Below, one piece after another: positions 11,350-25,172 of a stretch of DNA of 37,537 bases (positions are counted from its first letter, which is position 1; every line of letters begins with the position of its first letter). The stretch is from IMG/VR virus record IMGVR_UViG_3300046003_003813, positions 1 through 37,537 of that record. The stretch is one strand, 5' to 3'. This DNA comes from a virus. Position numbers and translations under genes: made by a program. The notes beneath the pieces were generated by a model. It saw only the letters and a list, made by a program, of their open reading frames with translations, made no database searches and had not been told where the DNA came from.

Positions 11350-12501
11350 TTAAAAATCAGTTCCCTTTTCTAATATCTCTTTCCTGTTTACTTCTTTTAA
11401 ATTCGTGATATAAATTTGAGTGGTTACTTCGCTTGTATGCCCGAATAAATCTTTAATTGCATTGATAGAAACCCCTGCTAAAATTAAAGCATTTGCACCT
11501 GCTTTTTTCATTGCATACATTGACATAGGTATTTTTAGTTTCTTCTTGACTATCGCTTCCCATCGTCTCGTGGCAGTATCTCTATTGATATGAGTTGGTC
11601 CAGGAATGAAATCTTCAAACTTTCCAAGATTACCTTTGCCGGGTTCTCTAAAGCTGCCAAATAAATAATAACTTTTCGGTAAGTTTCCGAATTGCATACT
11701 CTCGTAATACGGTAAAAGAAAATGGGATATAGGTACAATCCTTTTTTTATTGGTTTTTGTTATTTCGGGCGGTAAAGTAATGGTACTATCTTTTAAGTTT
11801 ACCATCGATAATTTAATCTTTAAAATTTCCTCTGGTCTTATTCCTGTAAAGAATATCGTTATACAAAATATGTAAAAATTATAATGATTGGTTTCAAGTT
11901 CTGTCCTGATTCTTTGCATATCGGTTTTACTTGCCGGGTGGTTTGCATCGGGAGCGGAAACCTTTAAATTTTTAACGTTATAAGCTGGACTAACTTCTAT
12001 TATATCAAACTGTAATAACTCGCTTAAAATAGCCTTAAAATGGTTTAAATGTTTATTGTGCGCTTTGTTGCTCCAAGTGTTTAATTCCTTTGCACTCTCC
12101 ATTATCAATTTTATATGGATTCTTTTACAGTCTACTATGCAAAGATTGGTTAACCCTATATTTTTAATGGCAGTTTCTAAAAAGTTTAATGAGCCATTAT
12201 ACCCGGAATAGGTTTTAGGCGATATATTAGGTTTCTTTTTTTCAAGTGCAAATTTCAACGCTTCTATTAAAGTCAATTCTGATTTAGGTGTAGATATTCC
12301 TTTTATATTTGGATTCCAACCAGCTTTTAAATCGGTCAATATTTCTCTACAAAGATCCTCGAAGTACATTTGTCTTTCTTTTAAGTCCTCGATTTTGTTG
12401 TAGTGGAGTTTATATCTAAACTGTTTACCCTCATATCGAAAATGAACGTACCATAAAGAAGTGGTTTTAGATATTTTAGGGAGTGTGTATTTAACTTTCA
12501 T
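11350..12501 (-). CDS. int: Tyrosine recombinase (phage integrase)
   Basis: 383 residues from the first ATG (12501); a longer frame to a TTG at 12576 is possible but less likely. The N-terminal part (1-60) resembles an arm-binding domain, and residues 75-175 are a SAM-like core-binding domain. The catalytic domain shows R222 (TGIRPEE), K251/K252, Y329-x-x-K332 in place of the usual H-x-x-R, H355 (FGHTS) and the nucleophile Y364 (TQIYI). The Y/K box is typical of Bacteroidetes integrases. It integrates and excises the prophage at attP/attB. No additional IntI-type insertion is evident, so it is not an integron integrase. Confidence 0.92.
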   Translation of the reverse strand: MKVKYTLPKISKTTSLWYVHFRYEGKQFRYKLHYNKIEDLKERQMYFEDLCREILTDLKAGWNPNIKGISTPKSELTLIEALKFALEKKKPNISPKTYSGYNGSLNFLETAIKNIGLTNLCIVDCKRIHIKLIMESAKELNTWSNKAHNKHLNHFKAILSELLQFDIIEVSPAYNVKNLKVSAPDANHPASKTDMQRIRTELETNHYNFYIFCITIFFTGIRPEEILKIKLSMVNLKDSTITLPPEITKTNKKRIVPISHFLLPYYESMQFGNLPKSYYLFGSFREPGKGNLGKFEDFIPGPTHINRDTATRRWEAIVKKKLKIPMSMYAMKKAGANALILAGVSINAIKDLFGHTSEVTTQIYITNLKEVNRKEILEKGTDF

Positions 12502-12693
12502 TTTGTGTACTATTTGTGTATTGAAAGGTAAAAAAAAATTGGGAAAGCCTTTGTTTATTAGCGTTTCCCAATTCAAGCGGAGAAAGAGGGAAACGGGGAT
12601 AGCCTTTTTTTAAAAATTAATACCAGTGTTTTCGGGGGGTGGCATTTTCTAAATTGCCTCTTTTAACGTGTTTTTGTGTACTGTTTGTGTACT
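12502..12693. repeat. Near-identical 21-bp repeats flanking the integrase start
   Basis: On the minus strand two copies of TACACAAA-N-AGTACACAAA lie at 12502-12522 (directly upstream of the integrase ATG) and 12673-12693 (inside the 3' end of the upstream HTH gene). They match at 19 of 21 bases. Each copy itself contains two TACACAAA units. They look like binding sites for the integrase arm domain, an excisionase or a repressor. Confidence 0.65.
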
Positions 12694-14191: not shown

Positions 14192-14440
14192 ATGACACTT
14201 ACAAAAACAGATTTATTCAACTTGACAAGTCCTAAAGGAATGTTTACTCCTGATTCAATCAACGAAGTGACTTCTTATACAGGTGTTAAAAGAATGGTTT
14301 ACACTAAAAATGTAAAAGGTGGCACTATCTCTAGTGATTCACTTGAAAGATTAGAAGCAATGGTTATGGCTCACAAACCATTAAACAACGACAACGCTAG
14401 ACACGACTACAACAACGGTACAAACTTTAACAACGACTAA
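14192..14440 (+). CDS. Hypothetical early protein
   Basis: 82 residues, Asn/Thr/Asp-rich C terminus (NNDNARHDYNNGTNFNND). First gene after early promoter 2, with a leader of about 30 nt. No known domain visible. The stop overlaps the next start (TAATG). Confidence 0.68.
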   Translation: MTLTKTDLFNLTSPKGMFTPDSINEVTSYTGVKRMVYTKNVKGGTISSDSLERLEAMVMAHKPLNNDNARHDYNNGTNFNND

Positions 14441-14577
14441 TGAAAGCCTTTTTAATGGTAGTGTCAAACTACCCAATTAAGAAAAGAACAGTATTAGAAC
14501 CCTACGAAAGCAGAAAACAAATAAACAAAGACTCCTTTATGATAGGAGTCTGGAAACTAAAAACCTTTAAAAAATAA
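14440..14577 (+). CDS. Small basic hypothetical protein
   Basis: 45 residues, Lys-rich (MKAFLMVVSNYPIKKRTVLE ...), coupled to the preceding gene by a 1-nt stop/start overlap. Function unknown. Confidence 0.58.
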   Translation: MKAFLMVVSNYPIKKRTVLEPYESRKQINKDSFMIGVWKLKTFKK

Positions 14578-14581
14578 AATT

Positions 14582-14806
14582 ATGACAACAGCATTAGAAT
14601 TTTTGATTAAGAGAATAGAAAGCGACACAGTCCAATACTATTCCTGTGAAGAAGTTTTAGAACTTCTAAAAGATTACGAGTTGATTCAAGAGGAAAATAT
14701 CAAAACAGCCTTTTTACACGGTAAAATAAACGCAAGACAATACCCGGCAGGAAGTGAATTTAACTTAGGGAGTGACGAGTATTTTATTAACGAATGGAAT
14801 AACTGA
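14582..14806 (+). CDS. Hypothetical protein, relative of the 20369 gene
   Basis: 74 residues, acidic. It contains YYSCEEVLELLKDY and IKTAFLHGKINARQ. The second stretch resembles YSEEEVKTAFLDGWQLRDGD in the 80-residue protein at 20369, so both may belong to a small phage family seen repeatedly in Bacteroidetes prophages. Function unknown. Confidence 0.65.
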   Translation: MTTALEFLIKRIESDTVQYYSCEEVLELLKDYELIQEENIKTAFLHGKINARQYPAGSEFNLGSDEYFINEWNN

Positions 14807-20368: not shown

Positions 20369-20611
20369 ATGAAGCAAACAGTATTAGAGTGGTTTATTCA
20401 AGAATTTGAAAAAGAACCAACAAAAGCTAATCTTGACAGATTAAATGAACAAGCTAAAGAAATGGAAAAGCAACAGCAATGTTATAGTGAGGAAGAAGTA
20501 AAAACTGCTTTTCTTGATGGGTGGCAATTAAGAGATGGAGATTTACCTTTTTCTAAAGCAATGAAAAAATGGTTTGAACAATTTAAAAAGAATATCGAGT
20601 CTAAATCGTAG
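20369..20611 (+). CDS. Hypothetical protein at the edge of the cassette array
   Basis: 80 residues, acidic, with YSEEEVKTAFLDGWQLRDGD and a helical C terminus; related in style to the 14582 protein. Its stop lies just before the first attC-like site, the usual position of a cassette gene, but no cassette start is visible upstream, so it is more likely phage core. Function unknown. Confidence 0.68.
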   Translation: MKQTVLEWFIQEFEKEPTKANLDRLNEQAKEMEKQQQCYSEEEVKTAFLDGWQLRDGDLPFSKAMKKWFEQFKKNIESKS

Positions 20612-20612
20612 T

Positions 20613-20698
20613 GTTAGGCATAACGTTTGTCGCTTGTACTAGGCGGCTATACGGTTGCGTATATTCTGCCGCTTAGTACAAACGATTGTTAGGGTGCG
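20613..20698 (+). other. attC-like site 1
   Basis: R''-like GCATAAC (20618-20624) and R'-like GTTAGGG (20688-20694) bracket a strong hairpin: 14 pairs (20634-20647 with 20668-20681, one G-T) topped by TATACG/CGTATA (20648-20653 with 20658-20663) and a 4-nt tip. AAC pairs with GTT at the outer end. It is clearly richer in G+C than its surroundings. The R' side starts cassette 1. Confidence 0.65.
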
Positions 20699-20726
20699 TA
20701 GTGGGTAATTAAATAAAAAAGAAGTT

Positions 20727-20879
20727 ATGAAAACAGAATTAAATCAATCATTACCCATTTTTTGGAAAGGTAAACTTTGCAAACTTATTAAATGGGAAAC
20801 CTTAAATTTTGGAGGTAAATTAAAAATTAAAATCGATAAAAAGTTTATCGAGGCTGATATTGACGAATTAAAAAACTAA
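20727..20879 (+). CDS. Cassette 1 small protein
   Basis: 50 residues, Lys-rich beta pattern (MKTELNQSLPIFWKGKLCKL ...). First gene after the R' box of attC-like site 1; followed 2 bp later by a zinc-ribbon-like gene. Function unknown. Confidence 0.6.
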   Translation: MKTELNQSLPIFWKGKLCKLIKWETLNFGGKLKIKIDKKFIEADIDELKN

Positions 20880-20881
20880 TT

Positions 20882-21091
20882 ATGGAAGAATGTAAATGCC
20901 CTCATTGTGGCTCAAAAGATTTTTATGTTCACGAATTTGAATACTGGAAAGCTCACGTTGACAAAGATGAACCAAATACAATTAATTGTTTTCACAAGTC
21001 AAGCGGAATTGATCTTGTAGAATGTGCAAAATGTGAAGCAGATATTACAGAAATAAGTACTAACCCTGATTTTAAATTTAATTTCCAATGA
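20882..21091 (+). CDS. Cassette 1 zinc-ribbon-like protein
   Basis: 69 residues with CKCPHCGSKDFYVHEFEY near the N terminus and CAKCEAD about 35 residues later, the two knuckles of a zinc ribbon. The stop overlaps the start of the methyltransferase gene by 4 nt, so the two are coupled; a regulatory or partner role is possible. Confidence 0.68.
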   Translation: MEECKCPHCGSKDFYVHEFEYWKAHVDKDEPNTINCFHKSSGIDLVECAKCEADITEISTNPDFKFNFQ

Positions 21092-21762
21092 TACAGCTAA
21101 ATAAACAAGATGCTTTCTCTTTTTTATCAGGACTAGAAAATAATAGTGTTGATATGGTATTTACCGACCCACCTTATTGGACTTTAAATAAATGGAGAAA
21201 CGTAGGAACTACAACAAGATTAGGTGGTAATTCAGATAAAGACAAGCAAACAGGATGGTTTGAAACTATTGACAGTGAAGAATTGTGGCAGTTGATGTGC
21301 GAATTGTACCGAGTTTTGAAAAAAGATAGACATTGTTTCGTTATGTGTGACGGACAGACTTTAAAATGGGTTTTAGGATATGCAGAAGAAGCGGGTTTTA
21401 GTTATTTTAAGCCACTTATTTGGGACAAAGTTAGTCTTGGAATGGGCTATCATTTTAGAAGCCGACACGAATTTATTGTAATGCTCGATAAAGGTAAAAA
21501 TAGAAAACCAAAAAGTTTATCTATACCTGATATTTTTGAAGTTCCAATGATAAAAGGCGGTTATCCAACTGAAAAACCACAAGGATTGATTGATATTTTT
21601 ATTGACCAATTTACAGAAGAAAACGAAGTTGTTGTTGATCCTTTCTTTGGAAGTGGAACAGTTCCTTTAAGTTGTAAACAAAAAAACAGAATTTTCAAAG
21701 GCTCTGATATTAGCGATGAATCACATAGATATTCAGAATCACGCTTGAATACGCTCTTTTGA
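21088..21762 (+). CDS. Cassette 1 DNA methyltransferase (N4/N6 type, DPPYW first)
   Basis: 224 residues. The catalytic motif TDPPYW (residues about 26-31) comes first and the SAM-binding motif VVDPFFGSGTV (about 189-199) last, the permuted order of the beta class of DNA amino-methyltransferases. RSRHEFIVMLDKG and KGGYPTEKPQGLIDIFI are typical of the family. No restriction gene lies beside it, so it is an orphan enzyme that probably masks phage DNA or alters gene regulation. It ends 18 bp before attC-like site 2. Confidence 0.88.
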   Translation: MIQLNKQDAFSFLSGLENNSVDMVFTDPPYWTLNKWRNVGTTTRLGGNSDKDKQTGWFETIDSEELWQLMCELYRVLKKDRHCFVMCDGQTLKWVLGYAEEAGFSYFKPLIWDKVSLGMGYHFRSRHEFIVMLDKGKNRKPKSLSIPDIFEVPMIKGGYPTEKPQGLIDIFIDQFTEENEVVVDPFFGSGTVPLSCKQKNRIFKGSDISDESHRYSESRLNTLF

Positions 21763-21778
21763 ATGATAATCGAACTAT

Positions 21779-21860
21779 GCACCCTAACGTTATGGTGCTT
21801 GTAGATGCCAGCCTACACGCAAACCATATTTCGGCTGGTAGCTACAAACACCTGTTATAA
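21779..21860 (+). other. attC-like site 2
   Basis: R'' side GCACCCTAAC (21779-21788) is the exact reverse complement of GTTAGGGTGC (20688-20697) at the start of cassette 1, as expected for an integron cassette. Hairpin arms 21794-21813 and 21833-21852 pair over 20 positions (17 standard pairs, one G-T, two mismatches). R'-like GTTATAA at 21854-21860 starts cassette 2. Confidence 0.68.
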
Positions 21861-21869
21861 TTCGTTTTT

Positions 21870-22010
21870 ATGAGAACACACAAAAGTAAAATAATTCAGA
21901 AAATGCTCGATGATATGGCAAAAGACCATTGGTGGGTAAAACTAAAAAGATGGTATCGTTTAAAACTTTGGGTTTTACGATGTTTTCTTTTTAACCGCAA
22001 TCGTGATTAA
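21870..22010 (+). CDS. Cassette 2 small basic protein
   Basis: 46 residues, very basic with several Trp (HWWVKLKRWYRLKLWVLRCF), possibly membrane-active or nucleic-acid binding. It is the only gene of cassette 2, with its stop 5 bp before the R'' box of site 3. Function unknown. Confidence 0.55.
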   Translation: MRTHKSKIIQKMLDDMAKDHWWVKLKRWYRLKLWVLRCFLFNRNRD

Positions 22011-22015
22011 AATGA

Positions 22016-22151
22016 GTTATAACGTTCCGTGTGTTTATTTCAGTTGTGGAATGGCATAAAACTAACTTTCGATTAATAACTAAAAACAAAAGTACAAACT
22101 AAACATTGAATTAAACCAAAAGCCACAATTGAATAAACACGCTGTTATGCG
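22016..22151 (+). other. attC-like site 3
   Basis: R''-like GTTATAAC (22016-22023) matches R' GTTATAA of site 2. Arms about 22031-22049 and 22123-22140 pair over 18 positions with one bulge and one G-T, closing a 73-nt variable loop. R'-like GTTATGC (22144-22150) begins cassette 3. The long loop resembles larger attC sites. Confidence 0.62.
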
Positions 22152-22216
22152 TTCGGCTTTTTTTAGTGTTGATTTTCAGGTTATTAAAAAATAAATTAAA
22201 AATACTTTGAAAAATG

Positions 22217-22247
22217 TTTGCAGAAATCAAAATAAGTATTATATTTG
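22217..22247 (+). promoter_or_regulatory. Cassette 3 internal promoter
   Basis: TTTG (22217-22220), exactly 19 bp, TATATTTG (22240-22247): a textbook Bacteroidetes promoter without the phage motif. It gives cassette 3 its own expression and forces the downstream start to 22296. Confidence 0.8.
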
Positions 22248-22295
22248 TACTCAGATAACAACAACGAAGTTTTTATCACTAAAAAAATAGAAATT

Positions 22296-22490
22296 ATGAC
22301 AACTACAAACGAAACATTAAGACAAGCATTTGAAAACGGAAATTTAGTAACTTTTAGAACTGCAACATCAAGAGAAACAAATGTAAAAATTGTGAAATTA
22401 AATACTGATGATGTAGGAAATAAAGAATTTACATTTGAAACATCAAAAGGCGAAAGATACACAAGATTTTCAAATAACATTTGGTTCTAA
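22296..22490 (+). CDS. Cassette 3 small protein
   Basis: 64 residues from the ATG at 22296; a longer frame from a TTG at 22245 overlaps the promoter and is rejected. Thr/Asn-rich beta pattern (TVKIVKLNTDD-like middle, FTFETSKGERYTRFSNN end). The stop overlaps the next start by 1 nt. The pair with the following RHH-like gene resembles a two-gene toxin-antitoxin layout, but no toxin family is recognised. Confidence 0.66.
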   Translation: MTTTNETLRQAFENGNLVTFRTATSRETNVKIVKLNTDDVGNKEFTFETSKGERYTRFSNNIWF

Positions 22491-22657
22491 TGAAAAACAA
22501 AAAAGAAACGAGAGGGGGCAAACGCTCCTTCTCTGGTCGTAAAAAAGCCGATTATGAAACTAAAACTATTTCCTTTCGTGTTCGTGTCGAATTTGTCGAA
22601 CCGATTAAACAAATGGTCAAAGATTACGTTTCGGCTCGTTTGCAAGCTGACGCATAA
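22490..22657 (+). CDS. Cassette 3 ribbon-helix-helix-like protein
   Basis: 55 residues: Arg/Lys/Gly-rich start (RGGKRSFSGRKKAD), then TKTISFRVRVEFVEPIKQMV, the beta strand and first helix expected of a ribbon-helix-helix DNA-binding protein. Its stop codon lies inside the R'' box (GCATAAC) of attC-like site 4, a common feature of real integron cassettes. Confidence 0.66.
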   Translation: MKNKKETRGGKRSFSGRKKADYETKTISFRVRVEFVEPIKQMVKDYVSARLQADA

Positions 22658-22785
22658 CGTAAAAGCATTGGCGAAGTAGCCGTATTTGAAAAACAAATCT
22701 TTAATAAAGCACAAAAGATGATAGAAGAACAAAAGCCCAATAACAGCACTGAAACGGCTATTTTGCCAATGCAGTGTTATGTGCA
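22651..22785 (+). other. attC-like site 4
   Basis: R'' CGCATAAC (22651-22658) is the reverse complement of GTTATGCG at the start of cassette 3 (22144-22151). Arms 22665-22683 and 22754-22772 pair over all 19 positions (17 standard, two G-T), with a 70-nt loop. R'-like GTTATGT (22776-22782) starts cassette 4. The MT-A70 reading frame begins within the loop. Confidence 0.68.
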
Positions 22786-23350
22786 GGGCGGTTTAAAGAA
22801 GTATTCAGTTATTTACGCTGACCCTGCTTGGAGTTACGATTTTAAAGAGCCTACTGCATCAAAAGGTGGAGCAAAGGGAAGTGGTTATTCCGCAGGGGTT
22901 AATTACTATTATGGAACAATGACTACAAAACAGATACTTGAATTGCCTGTTAAAAACATTTGCGAAAAGGATTGTGTGCTTTTTCTATGGGCAACAAATC
23001 CGCTTTTACCCGAAGCATTAGAAACAATGAAGGCTTGGGGATTTAAGTATAAGACAATGATAACTTGGCACAAAGAACGATGCAAGGGAATGGGATATTG
23101 GTTTCGTGGACATACCGAACATATTTTAGTAGGTGTAAAAGGGAATGTAAAAGCGTTTCGTTCTTTGGAACACAATATAAAAAAGTTGCCCGTAGAAAAG
23201 CATAGCAAAAAGCCTGATGAATTTCGTCAAATGATTGAAGCAGTTACAGGCAATTTAGGCAATAGAATAGAATTGTTTGCAAGGAATAACCACGAGGGAT
23301 GGGATGCTTGGGGAAATGAAGTAGGTTCGTCTGTCGAAGTAGGATGGTAG
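22718..23350 (+). CDS. Cassette 4 MT-A70 family adenine methyltransferase
   Basis: 210 residues. YADPAWSYDF (about 31-40) is the catalytic (D)PPW-type motif with Ala for the second Pro. LFLWATNPLLPEALETMKAWGF, then WHKERCKGMGYWFRGHTEHILVGV and GNLGNRIELFAR complete the MT-A70 pattern. Likely an N6-adenine DNA methyltransferase without restriction partner. The first about 18 residues are encoded inside attC-like site 4; an internal ATG at 22769 is also within it. It ends immediately before an R''-like box. Confidence 0.88.
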   Translation: MIEEQKPNNSTETAILPMQCYVQGGLKKYSVIYADPAWSYDFKEPTASKGGAKGSGYSAGVNYYYGTMTTKQILELPVKNICEKDCVLFLWATNPLLPEALETMKAWGFKYKTMITWHKERCKGMGYWFRGHTEHILVGVKGNVKAFRSLEHNIKKLPVEKHSKKPDEFRQMIEAVTGNLGNRIELFARNNHEGWDAWGNEVGSSVEVGW

Positions 23351-23363
23351 CCTTGCACATAAC
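23351..23363 (+). other. R''-like half site ending the cassette array
   Basis: TGCACATAAC (23354-23363) is the exact reverse complement of GTTATGTGCA (22776-22785) at the start of cassette 4. No matching second arm or R' box follows, so the last site looks truncated at the border to phage sequence. Confidence 0.6.
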
Positions 23364-23668: not shown

Positions 23669-24172
23669 ATGGAAAACTGGATAGATATTAAAGGATTTGA
23701 AGGGTTGTATCAAGTTAGTGATTTAGGCAATGTTAAAAGTTTGGGTAATAACAAACTTAGAAAAGAAAAAATACTAAAACAAGGTTTATCGCATTGCGGA
23801 TATAAAACTGTTTGTTTATCAAAAAACAATAAATGTAAAACATATACTACACATAGATTAGTAGCAATGTCTTTTATCCTAAATAATGAAAATAAGCGCA
23901 CGGTAAATCACCGTAATGGTATTAAAATAAATAATAATGCTATAAATTTAGAATGGTGTACTACTTCCGAAAATACCAAACACGCATACGATAATGGATT
24001 GATAAAAGTTTCTAAAGCAGAATGTCACGTTAATTCAAAATTAACTAATTTACAAGTTTTAGAAATAAGAAAAATAGGTAGAACTTTAAAACAAAGAGTT
24101 ATAGCTGATATGTTTGGAGTTAGACAAGTTTTAATAAGTAATGTTTTAAATAATATAAGTTATAATTTTTAA
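23669..24172 (+). CDS. HNH homing endonuclease (NUMOD4-HNH-HTH)
   Basis: 167 residues. Residues 3-45 are a NUMOD4 motif (WIDIKGFEGLYQVSDLGNVKS). Residues about 60-105 carry the HNH core: THRLVAMSF, VNHRNGIKINNNAINLEW, then TSENTKHAY. Residues 115-165 form a DNA-binding HTH (LTNLQVLEIRKIGRTL, VIADMFGVRQVLISNVL). It is inserted, with its own promoter and leader, into the small RHH-like gene. Lower G+C than the surroundings fits a mobile origin. Confidence 0.9.
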   Translation: MENWIDIKGFEGLYQVSDLGNVKSLGNNKLRKEKILKQGLSHCGYKTVCLSKNNKCKTYTTHRLVAMSFILNNENKRTVNHRNGIKINNNAINLEWCTTSENTKHAYDNGLIKVSKAECHVNSKLTNLQVLEIRKIGRTLKQRVIADMFGVRQVLISNVLNNISYNF

Positions 24173-24638: not shown

Positions 24639-25172
24639 ATGTTAGAAGAACTTTGCAAATCTCACGATAAATGGTTACGAATGGCGATGTCAATTTGTGG
24701 AAATCGTGACAAAGCAAACGACTTAACGCAGGATATGTATATCAAATTACATAATTCAACACAAGAGATCAACGAATGGTATATTTATAGAACGATTAAA
24801 TCTATATTCATTGATGAGATACGAGCAAACAAAAATAACACGTTTATTGAAATTGATAATCTGGCAGTAATAGACGAAACAGCAGACCATTATCAAAATA
24901 ACATTAACTACGAAATAGTTAAACACGAGTTCGATAATTTAAAGTGGCACGAAAAAACAATAATAAAACATAGTTACAACGATGGGTTAAGAGAATGCGC
25001 TTTAAGAATGCAAATATCTCCCACAACCGTTTTAAATTACAGAAACAAACTAAAACATAACGTATGGCAAAAGTTAAAAAATCCAACGGGATTGGAGATG
25101 TTATCGCAAAGTTTACAGAAGCAGTCGGAATTGAACCGTGCGCAGGGTGTACAGGTAGAAAGGCTGTTTTAA
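24639..25172 (+). CDS. ECF-like sigma factor, probable late-gene activator
   Basis: 177 residues. Residues 11-37 (WLRMAMSICGNRDKANDLTQDMY) match sigma region 2, and residues 50-62 continue it (YRTIKSIFIDEIR). Residues about 100-148 match region 4 with its HTH (LKWHEKTIIKHSYNDGLREC, then ISPTTVLNYRNKLK). The gene lies directly upstream of the terminase and late genes, whose three operons start with an ECF-like promoter. It would direct host RNA polymerase to those promoters. The last about 30 residues are read from DNA that also encodes the start of the next gene and may be non-essential. Confidence 0.78.
   Translation: MLEELCKSHDKWLRMAMSICGNRDKANDLTQDMYIKLHNSTQEINEWYIYRTIKSIFIDEIRANKNNTFIEIDNLAVIDETADHYQNNINYEIVKHEFDNLKWHEKTIIKHSYNDGLRECALRMQISPTTVLNYRNKLKHNVWQKLKNPTGLEMLSQSLQKQSELNRAQGVQVERLF

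Follow-up and report, generated by a model that had tools for sequence, protein, structure and literature searches.

Clusters of attC sites lacking integron integrases (CALINs) have been published for virulent phages by Qi et al. 2023 (PMC9892861), who found 17 of them, including one with methyltransferases in the Polaribacter phage P12002L, and in whose work five of the six phage attC sites tested recombined with IntI1. In the Bacteroidetes proper, IntegronFinder 2.0 gave a complete integron only for Salinibacter ruber (PMC9024848). The I2 region of integron integrases is held to be necessary for cassette capture and to confer single-strand recombination, with direct causal proof and a natural precursor still missing (PMC7790495). 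Here we describe a stretch of viral DNA of 37,537 nucleotides (the whole of positions 1 to 37,537 of the IMG/VR record IMGVR_UViG_3300046003_003813, called the window below) that contains a 2.7-kb block in which four hairpins, each flanked by two short boxes, stand between units of genes. This block is probably an array of four mobile, inverted gene cassettes in a Flavobacterium-type phage, which would be moved by a host recombinase acting in trans. In its relatives the breakpoints lie at a box, the sites belong to a family common to chromosomal arrays, and the genes run in the direction opposite to that of these arrays.

The four hairpins with their R''-like left and R'-like right boxes are all where the original prediction, made from the letters of the window, had placed them. 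Within each unit the start box is the exact reverse complement of the end box, which had also been predicted and holds for all four pairs (GTTAGGGTGC/GCACCCTAAC in cassette A, GTTATAA/TTATAAC in B, GTTATGCG/CGCATAAC in C and GTTATGTGCA/TGCACATAAC in D). The chance product of the four matches beyond GTT is ~2e-15 at the composition of the window, an indicative value only, as it applies to single pre-chosen places. Two corrections apply, one at each edge of the block. The gene at 20369-20611 was rejected as a further cassette and is probably flank, because the start box that it would need upstream (GTTATGCC) is missing, and the last box, at 23354-23363, has no hairpin. Position 23363 is the fixed end of the array, since L009 and L026 share the conserved backbone 3' of it but have different boxes in front of that backbone. 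The features of the locus are listed below, with the scores of a covariance model (R2) that was built from the sites of other phages and holds no window sequence.

11350-12576, - strand: ordinary phage tyrosine integrase (PF00589, phrog_1), the only tyrosine recombinase of the record
20369-20611, + strand: gene left of the array, 80 aa, without family match, probably fixed flank
20614-20697, + strand: attC-like site 1, with left box TTAGGCATAAC (20614-20624), hairpin (20625-20687) and right box GTTAGGGTGC (20688-20697); R2 40.0 bits, E 4.7e-6
20727-20879, + strand: cassette A gene 1, 50 aa, no assigned function
20882-21091, + strand: cassette A gene 2, 69 aa, weakly similar to restriction alleviation protein Lar, with scores under the curated cut-offs
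21088-21762, + strand: cassette A gene 3, N6/N4 DNA methyltransferase (PF01555, E 8.7e-29)
21779-21860, + strand: attC-like site 2, with left box GCACCCTAAC (21779-21788) and right box GTTATAA (21854-21860); R2 49.1 bits, E 4.0e-8
21870-22010, + strand: cassette B small open reading frame, 46 aa, no assigned function
22017-22151, + strand: attC-like site 3, with left box TTATAAC (22017-22023) and right box GTTATGCG (22144-22151); R2 30.2 bits, E 7.8e-4
22296-22490, + strand: cassette C gene 1, 64 aa, no assigned function
22490-22657, + strand: cassette C gene 2, 55 aa, no assigned function, stop codon inside box CGCATAAC
22651-22785, + strand: attC-like site 4, with left box CGCATAAC (22651-22658) and right box GTTATGTGCA (22776-22785); highest scanner stem score, no R2 match at E <= 1
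22718-23350, + strand: cassette D gene, MT-A70-type DNA methyltransferase (PF05063, E 1.2e-30); its true start is probably 22769 (ATG) or 22781 (GTG), at the right edge of the hairpin
23354-23363, + strand: end box TGCACATAAC without hairpin, fixed (attI-like) array end

A search of cultured phages returned single hairpins and not the whole block. Flavobacterium phages 2A, hemulen and stinky have a hairpin 81-86% identical to site 3 (window 22019-22147), and Flavobacterium phages 6H, 23T and 1H have one ~88% identical to site 2 (21785-21860); the matching hairpins stand there between different genes, in arrays that obey the same box rule. Similarly, L006 and L009, which are relatives of the window itself, have arrays with other cassettes. 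The comparison of related phages that the original prediction had proposed included the Unahavirus phages 6H, 2A, 23T, 1H, FPSV-D15 and FPSV-D35, which are near-identical outside the array (backbone >99.5%) and show clean unit differences inside it, units being gained and lost at the box. FPSV-D35 has one additional unit compared to FPSV-D15, and FPSV-D15 has an additional block compared to 2A, with the junction in both cases inside the TAACG left of the hairpin. Where FPSV-D15 reads GTTTCCGCTAAC followed by GTATAG, FPSV-D35 has a hairpin, GTTATCACT, a gene and AGTGATAAC between the same two sequences. The unit therefore consists of a hairpin and the following gene, with the crossover in the left box. 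Among the alignment ends of 173 site-bearing phage loci, 94 coincided with the left box in both partners and three with the right box, which indicates that the hairpin travels with its downstream gene.

Boxes, hairpins and the absence of an integrase, the published phage CALINs (PMC9892861) and a site family common to host integrons would all fit a standard CALIN, in which ordinary cassettes, each gene followed by an attC site on its 3' side, were captured from a host integron and are cut in the right-hand box. However, the breakpoints cluster at the opposite box, the units that distinguish FPSV-D35 from FPSV-D15 and FPSV-D15 from 2A have the hairpin ahead of the gene, and the genes are directed against those of the chromosomal arrays, so that this explanation is very unlikely. 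The predicted CALIN-type cluster was thus correct as to an integrase-less array in a phage but not as to standard cassettes, and the additional proposal that a host integron filled the array in trans is doubtful as regards the source of the cassettes, given that the gene direction is inverted and the hairpin moves with the downstream gene.

The polarity of the arrays was determined with the direction of each site fixed from sequence letters and spacers only. Genes ran in the sense direction at all 18 sites of the cultured phages, at 21 of 22 in IMG/VR relatives and at 356 of 376 pattern hits, whereas at chromosomal sites they were antisense in 90 of 99 cases and on the better-folding strand in 3 of 99, all counts including non-independent neighbouring cassettes and related phages. 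Mispairs on the same site strand were G-T rather than A-C in 281 versus 20 phage hairpins and in 69 versus 5 chromosomal hairpins. The near-invariant letters TAACG...T-GTTA, seen across 34 aligned sites (none from the window), recur on the bottom strand in most of the class 1 attC sites examined. Strand polarity thus has three pointers, namely the breakpoints, the near-invariant letters and the G-T strand bias. The shared letters and G-T bias, combined with the opposite gene direction, indicate that the site polarity is common to both groups and that the phage genes are inverted. Both types occur in the genome G332, in which a prophage-like locus (L220) is of the phage type and an integron (L267) is classical; L220 has a methyltransferase between sites, along with genes that resemble those of a primase and a replisome organizer.

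The folding strand also bears on the possibility that the hairpins are RNA-level elements, such as terminators or processing or translation signals, and that the exchange is homologous recombination using them as homology islands. The coding strand is the better-folding one in phages, and one hybrid hairpin of phage 2A arose inside the loop, both of which would agree with it. Yet in chromosomes the genes lie antisense to this better-folding strand, the breakpoints cluster on ~5-6 shared bases, which is too short for homologous recombination, and the box complementarity within units would be left unexplained. We consider this possibility very improbable.

The sites themselves were detected by several means. 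At a score of 28, a hairpin scanner found three of the window sites, against 0.0 per composition-shuffled window, and missed site 3; R2 matched sites 1 to 3 on the + strand, and the two methods combined recovered all four. Folding of the antisense DNA strand gave z-scores of -5.9, -2.2, -0.3 and -1.9 for sites 1 to 4. Fold energy alone is thus not decisive for sites 3 and 4, and the case is carried by the box pairing and the comparative evidence. In the 15 loci that have two or more sites, a right box and the next left box matched over a mean of 7.8 nt, versus 4.7 nt when shuffled, and matches of at least 8 nt occurred in 22 of 34 pairs (~1.3 expected). The covariation score of the 34 aligned sites was 0.467 versus 0.175 for shuffled ones, the sites having been chosen for pairing; as they came from a pairing scanner, their share of paired cells is biased upward. 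The stems of the phage sites mostly pair fully, and columns 26/47 hold a conserved G-T, close to the position of the extrahelical T of class 1 sites. A search of Rfam gave no match. Two narrow patterns matched at least 120 and 77 viral stretches in IMG/VR. A single viral sequence of 169.7 kb (IMGVR_UViG_3300043411_001575; L342, L277, L299 and L296) has many cassette units at several places.

Several observations weigh against an array of mobile cassettes. Site 4, which has spacers one to two bases longer, gave no R2 match at E <= 1. Extrahelical bases like those of classical attC sites are not evident in these stems, and a narrow class 1 attC model (R3, made of seven class 1 attC sites) matches none of the sites and nothing else outside class 1. 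Among the alignment ends in phage arrays, 116 of 219 lie at neither box. Near-identical hairpins with both boxes different were found at window 20621-20690 (site 1) and L097 8459-8528, and again at L006 11743 and L009 1591, which implies that hairpin cores are also exchanged by some further route. The hybrid hairpin of phage 2A (L110 7180-7350) consists of the left half of one site type fused to the right half of another via a shared loop stretch, with the intervening units deleted; it was probably made by homologous recombination, which also seems to reshape arrays. Finally, single units were gained and lost in cultured and uncultured relatives, and no recombination was seen in the window phage itself.

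According to the mechanism that we propose, each unit would comprise a hairpin site and its gene or genes, with the hairpin placed ahead of the gene, and the cut would fall in the box on the 5' side of this hairpin (the xxxTAAC|G region of the coding strand). The coding strand would fold as single-stranded DNA and be cut in trans by a host-encoded tyrosine recombinase of the integron type. New units would enter at the fixed downstream end (23363), where phage transcription from the left would read them. The phages may share a pool of such inverted cassettes, many of them with DNA methyltransferases.

As the original prediction had stated, the window record has no integron integrase, and its sole tyrosine recombinase (11350-12576) reaches 28.7 bits on TIGR02249, for which the cut-off is 265. 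This phage integrase was rejected as the cassette enzyme, since no PF00589 recombinase was found in the lytic phages hemulen and P12002L, both of which have arrays. More generally, the cassettes might be moved by a recombinase other than a host integrase, such as the integrase that the window phage encodes, the host XerCD or a single-strand (Y1/HUH) nuclease guided by box pairing. IS200/IS605 elements are cut 5' of a hairpin with pairing to a guide-like box, and the cut 5' of the hairpin and the box pairing observed here resemble this arrangement, which provides a lead only. However, hemulen and P12002L maintain arrays without a tyrosine recombinase, and the recombinase family beside chromosomal arrays of the same type is the obvious candidate. 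Movement by another recombinase is therefore rather unlikely, and the enzyme would most likely be a host integrase acting in trans.

This candidate came from the chromosomal arrays of Flavobacteriaceae that R2 matches (G271, G264, G266 and others). The G271 array has more than 20 sites over ~25 kb, mostly with one gene per cassette, and adjoins a divergent 364-residue tyrosine recombinase. A cassette duplicated in it (14329-14803 and 19529-20000 of L216 plus L217, the first copy on the recombinase side) has the layout of a classical cassette, beginning at a GTT and reaching through the hairpin into the next GTT. Of the 247 genomes sampled, 81 encode homologues of the recombinase at E <= 1e-60, and sites upstream on the same strand were present in 19 of the 22 recombinase neighbourhoods examined, the nearest at most 4.2 kb away; the gene is adjacent to and divergent from the attC array. 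The protein resembles IntI and XerA, its score on TIGR02249 (178.5 bits) is under the IntI cut-off of 265, and in its alignment with IntI1 ~40 residues holding the IntI-specific I2 region are missing. The search for a canonical IntI in Flavobacteriaceae gave none above the cut-off in 321 genomes. These arrays are integron-like by anatomy but have a recombinase that lacks I2. The recombinase at L216:13102-14196 and its homologues in L245-L267 have an additional N-terminal stretch of ~90 residues, and several contigs stop within a few kb of the recombinase, as expected for repeat arrays. Host-type recombinases were found in seven viral contigs, only one of them at 54% identity (L466, IMGVR_UViG_3300006226_000974), which may be host DNA or belong to a phage that encodes the enzyme. 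We lean slightly towards the view that an integron lineage widespread in the Flavobacteriaceae has an integrase able to recombine single-stranded hairpin sites with no I2 helix, and that the phages of these bacteria keep a separate pool of inverted cassettes, which this enzyme exchanges in trans and which is enriched in methyltransferases that counter restriction.

The 148 proteins from phage units with matching boxes include 21 N6_N4 methyltransferases, 4 C5 methylases, 3 MT-A70 and 1 Dam, so that methyltransferases make up about a fifth (~30/148), and most of the remaining ones match nothing. The window units contain an N6/N4 and an MT-A70 methyltransferase and the weakly Lar-like protein. 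The methyltransferases and other small cassette proteins may counter host restriction. A search of genomes for a cassette methyltransferase found none. Directly downstream of the array end lies a gene for a NUMOD4/HNH homing-type endonuclease (window 23669-24172), and the protein at 24639-25172 has the look of a sigma-70-type factor by reading alone. L026 is the IMG/VR contig 3300005581_000175, with a 97% identical terminase, and starts at the array end, which is consistent with assembly breaks at cassette arrays that could hide many of them.

Phage CALINs were reported as infrequent (17), whereas well over a hundred viral stretches match just the two narrow patterns, and cassette exchange therefore looks like a common way of swapping genes, methyltransferases included, in Flavobacteriaceae phages. 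The inverted polarity speaks against a simple copying of host cassettes by phages; each pool would be the wrong way round for the platform of the other. A natural I2-less enzyme beside hairpin arrays makes the question of the necessity of I2 directly testable, and, with Salinibacter ruber reported as the only case of a complete integron in the Bacteroidetes proper (PMC9024848), such systems may be missed by current tools.

Like the published phage CALINs, the window block is an integrase-less attC array with DNA methyltransferase cassettes, and the sites of P12002L have the same architecture and gene direction. However, that description (PMC9892861) does not include a general inversion of polarity, the box at which units are cut, the exchange of cassettes among sibling phages or Flavobacteriaceae host integrons with the same sites, and the literature searched, with preprints and most subscription papers outside the search, contained no description of inverted phage cassettes or of I2-less Flavobacteriaceae integrons. 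With Vibrio-type sedentary and class 1 integrons the array shares R''/R' hairpin sites, box complementarity within cassettes, a fixed array end, mostly one gene per cassette and a crossover at a GTT/AAC core on one strand. It differs from them in that the phage genes point the opposite way relative to the site, no integrase is present, the stem can mostly pair in full with G-T pairs instead of having clear extrahelical bases, and one spacer is only 1-3 nt long. The chromosomal arrays of Flavobacteriaceae have the same site family as the phage but the classical gene direction and an I2-less divergent recombinase. The window array has four attC-type hairpins in a row, no integron integrase and complementary end boxes, with single units gained and lost in its relatives; by contrast, the gene does not lie 5' of its own attC and the cut is not in the R' box 3' of the hairpin. 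The array is therefore a phage CALIN by anatomy, yet departs from the gene-to-attC direction of integron cassettes, and we call it a new variant.

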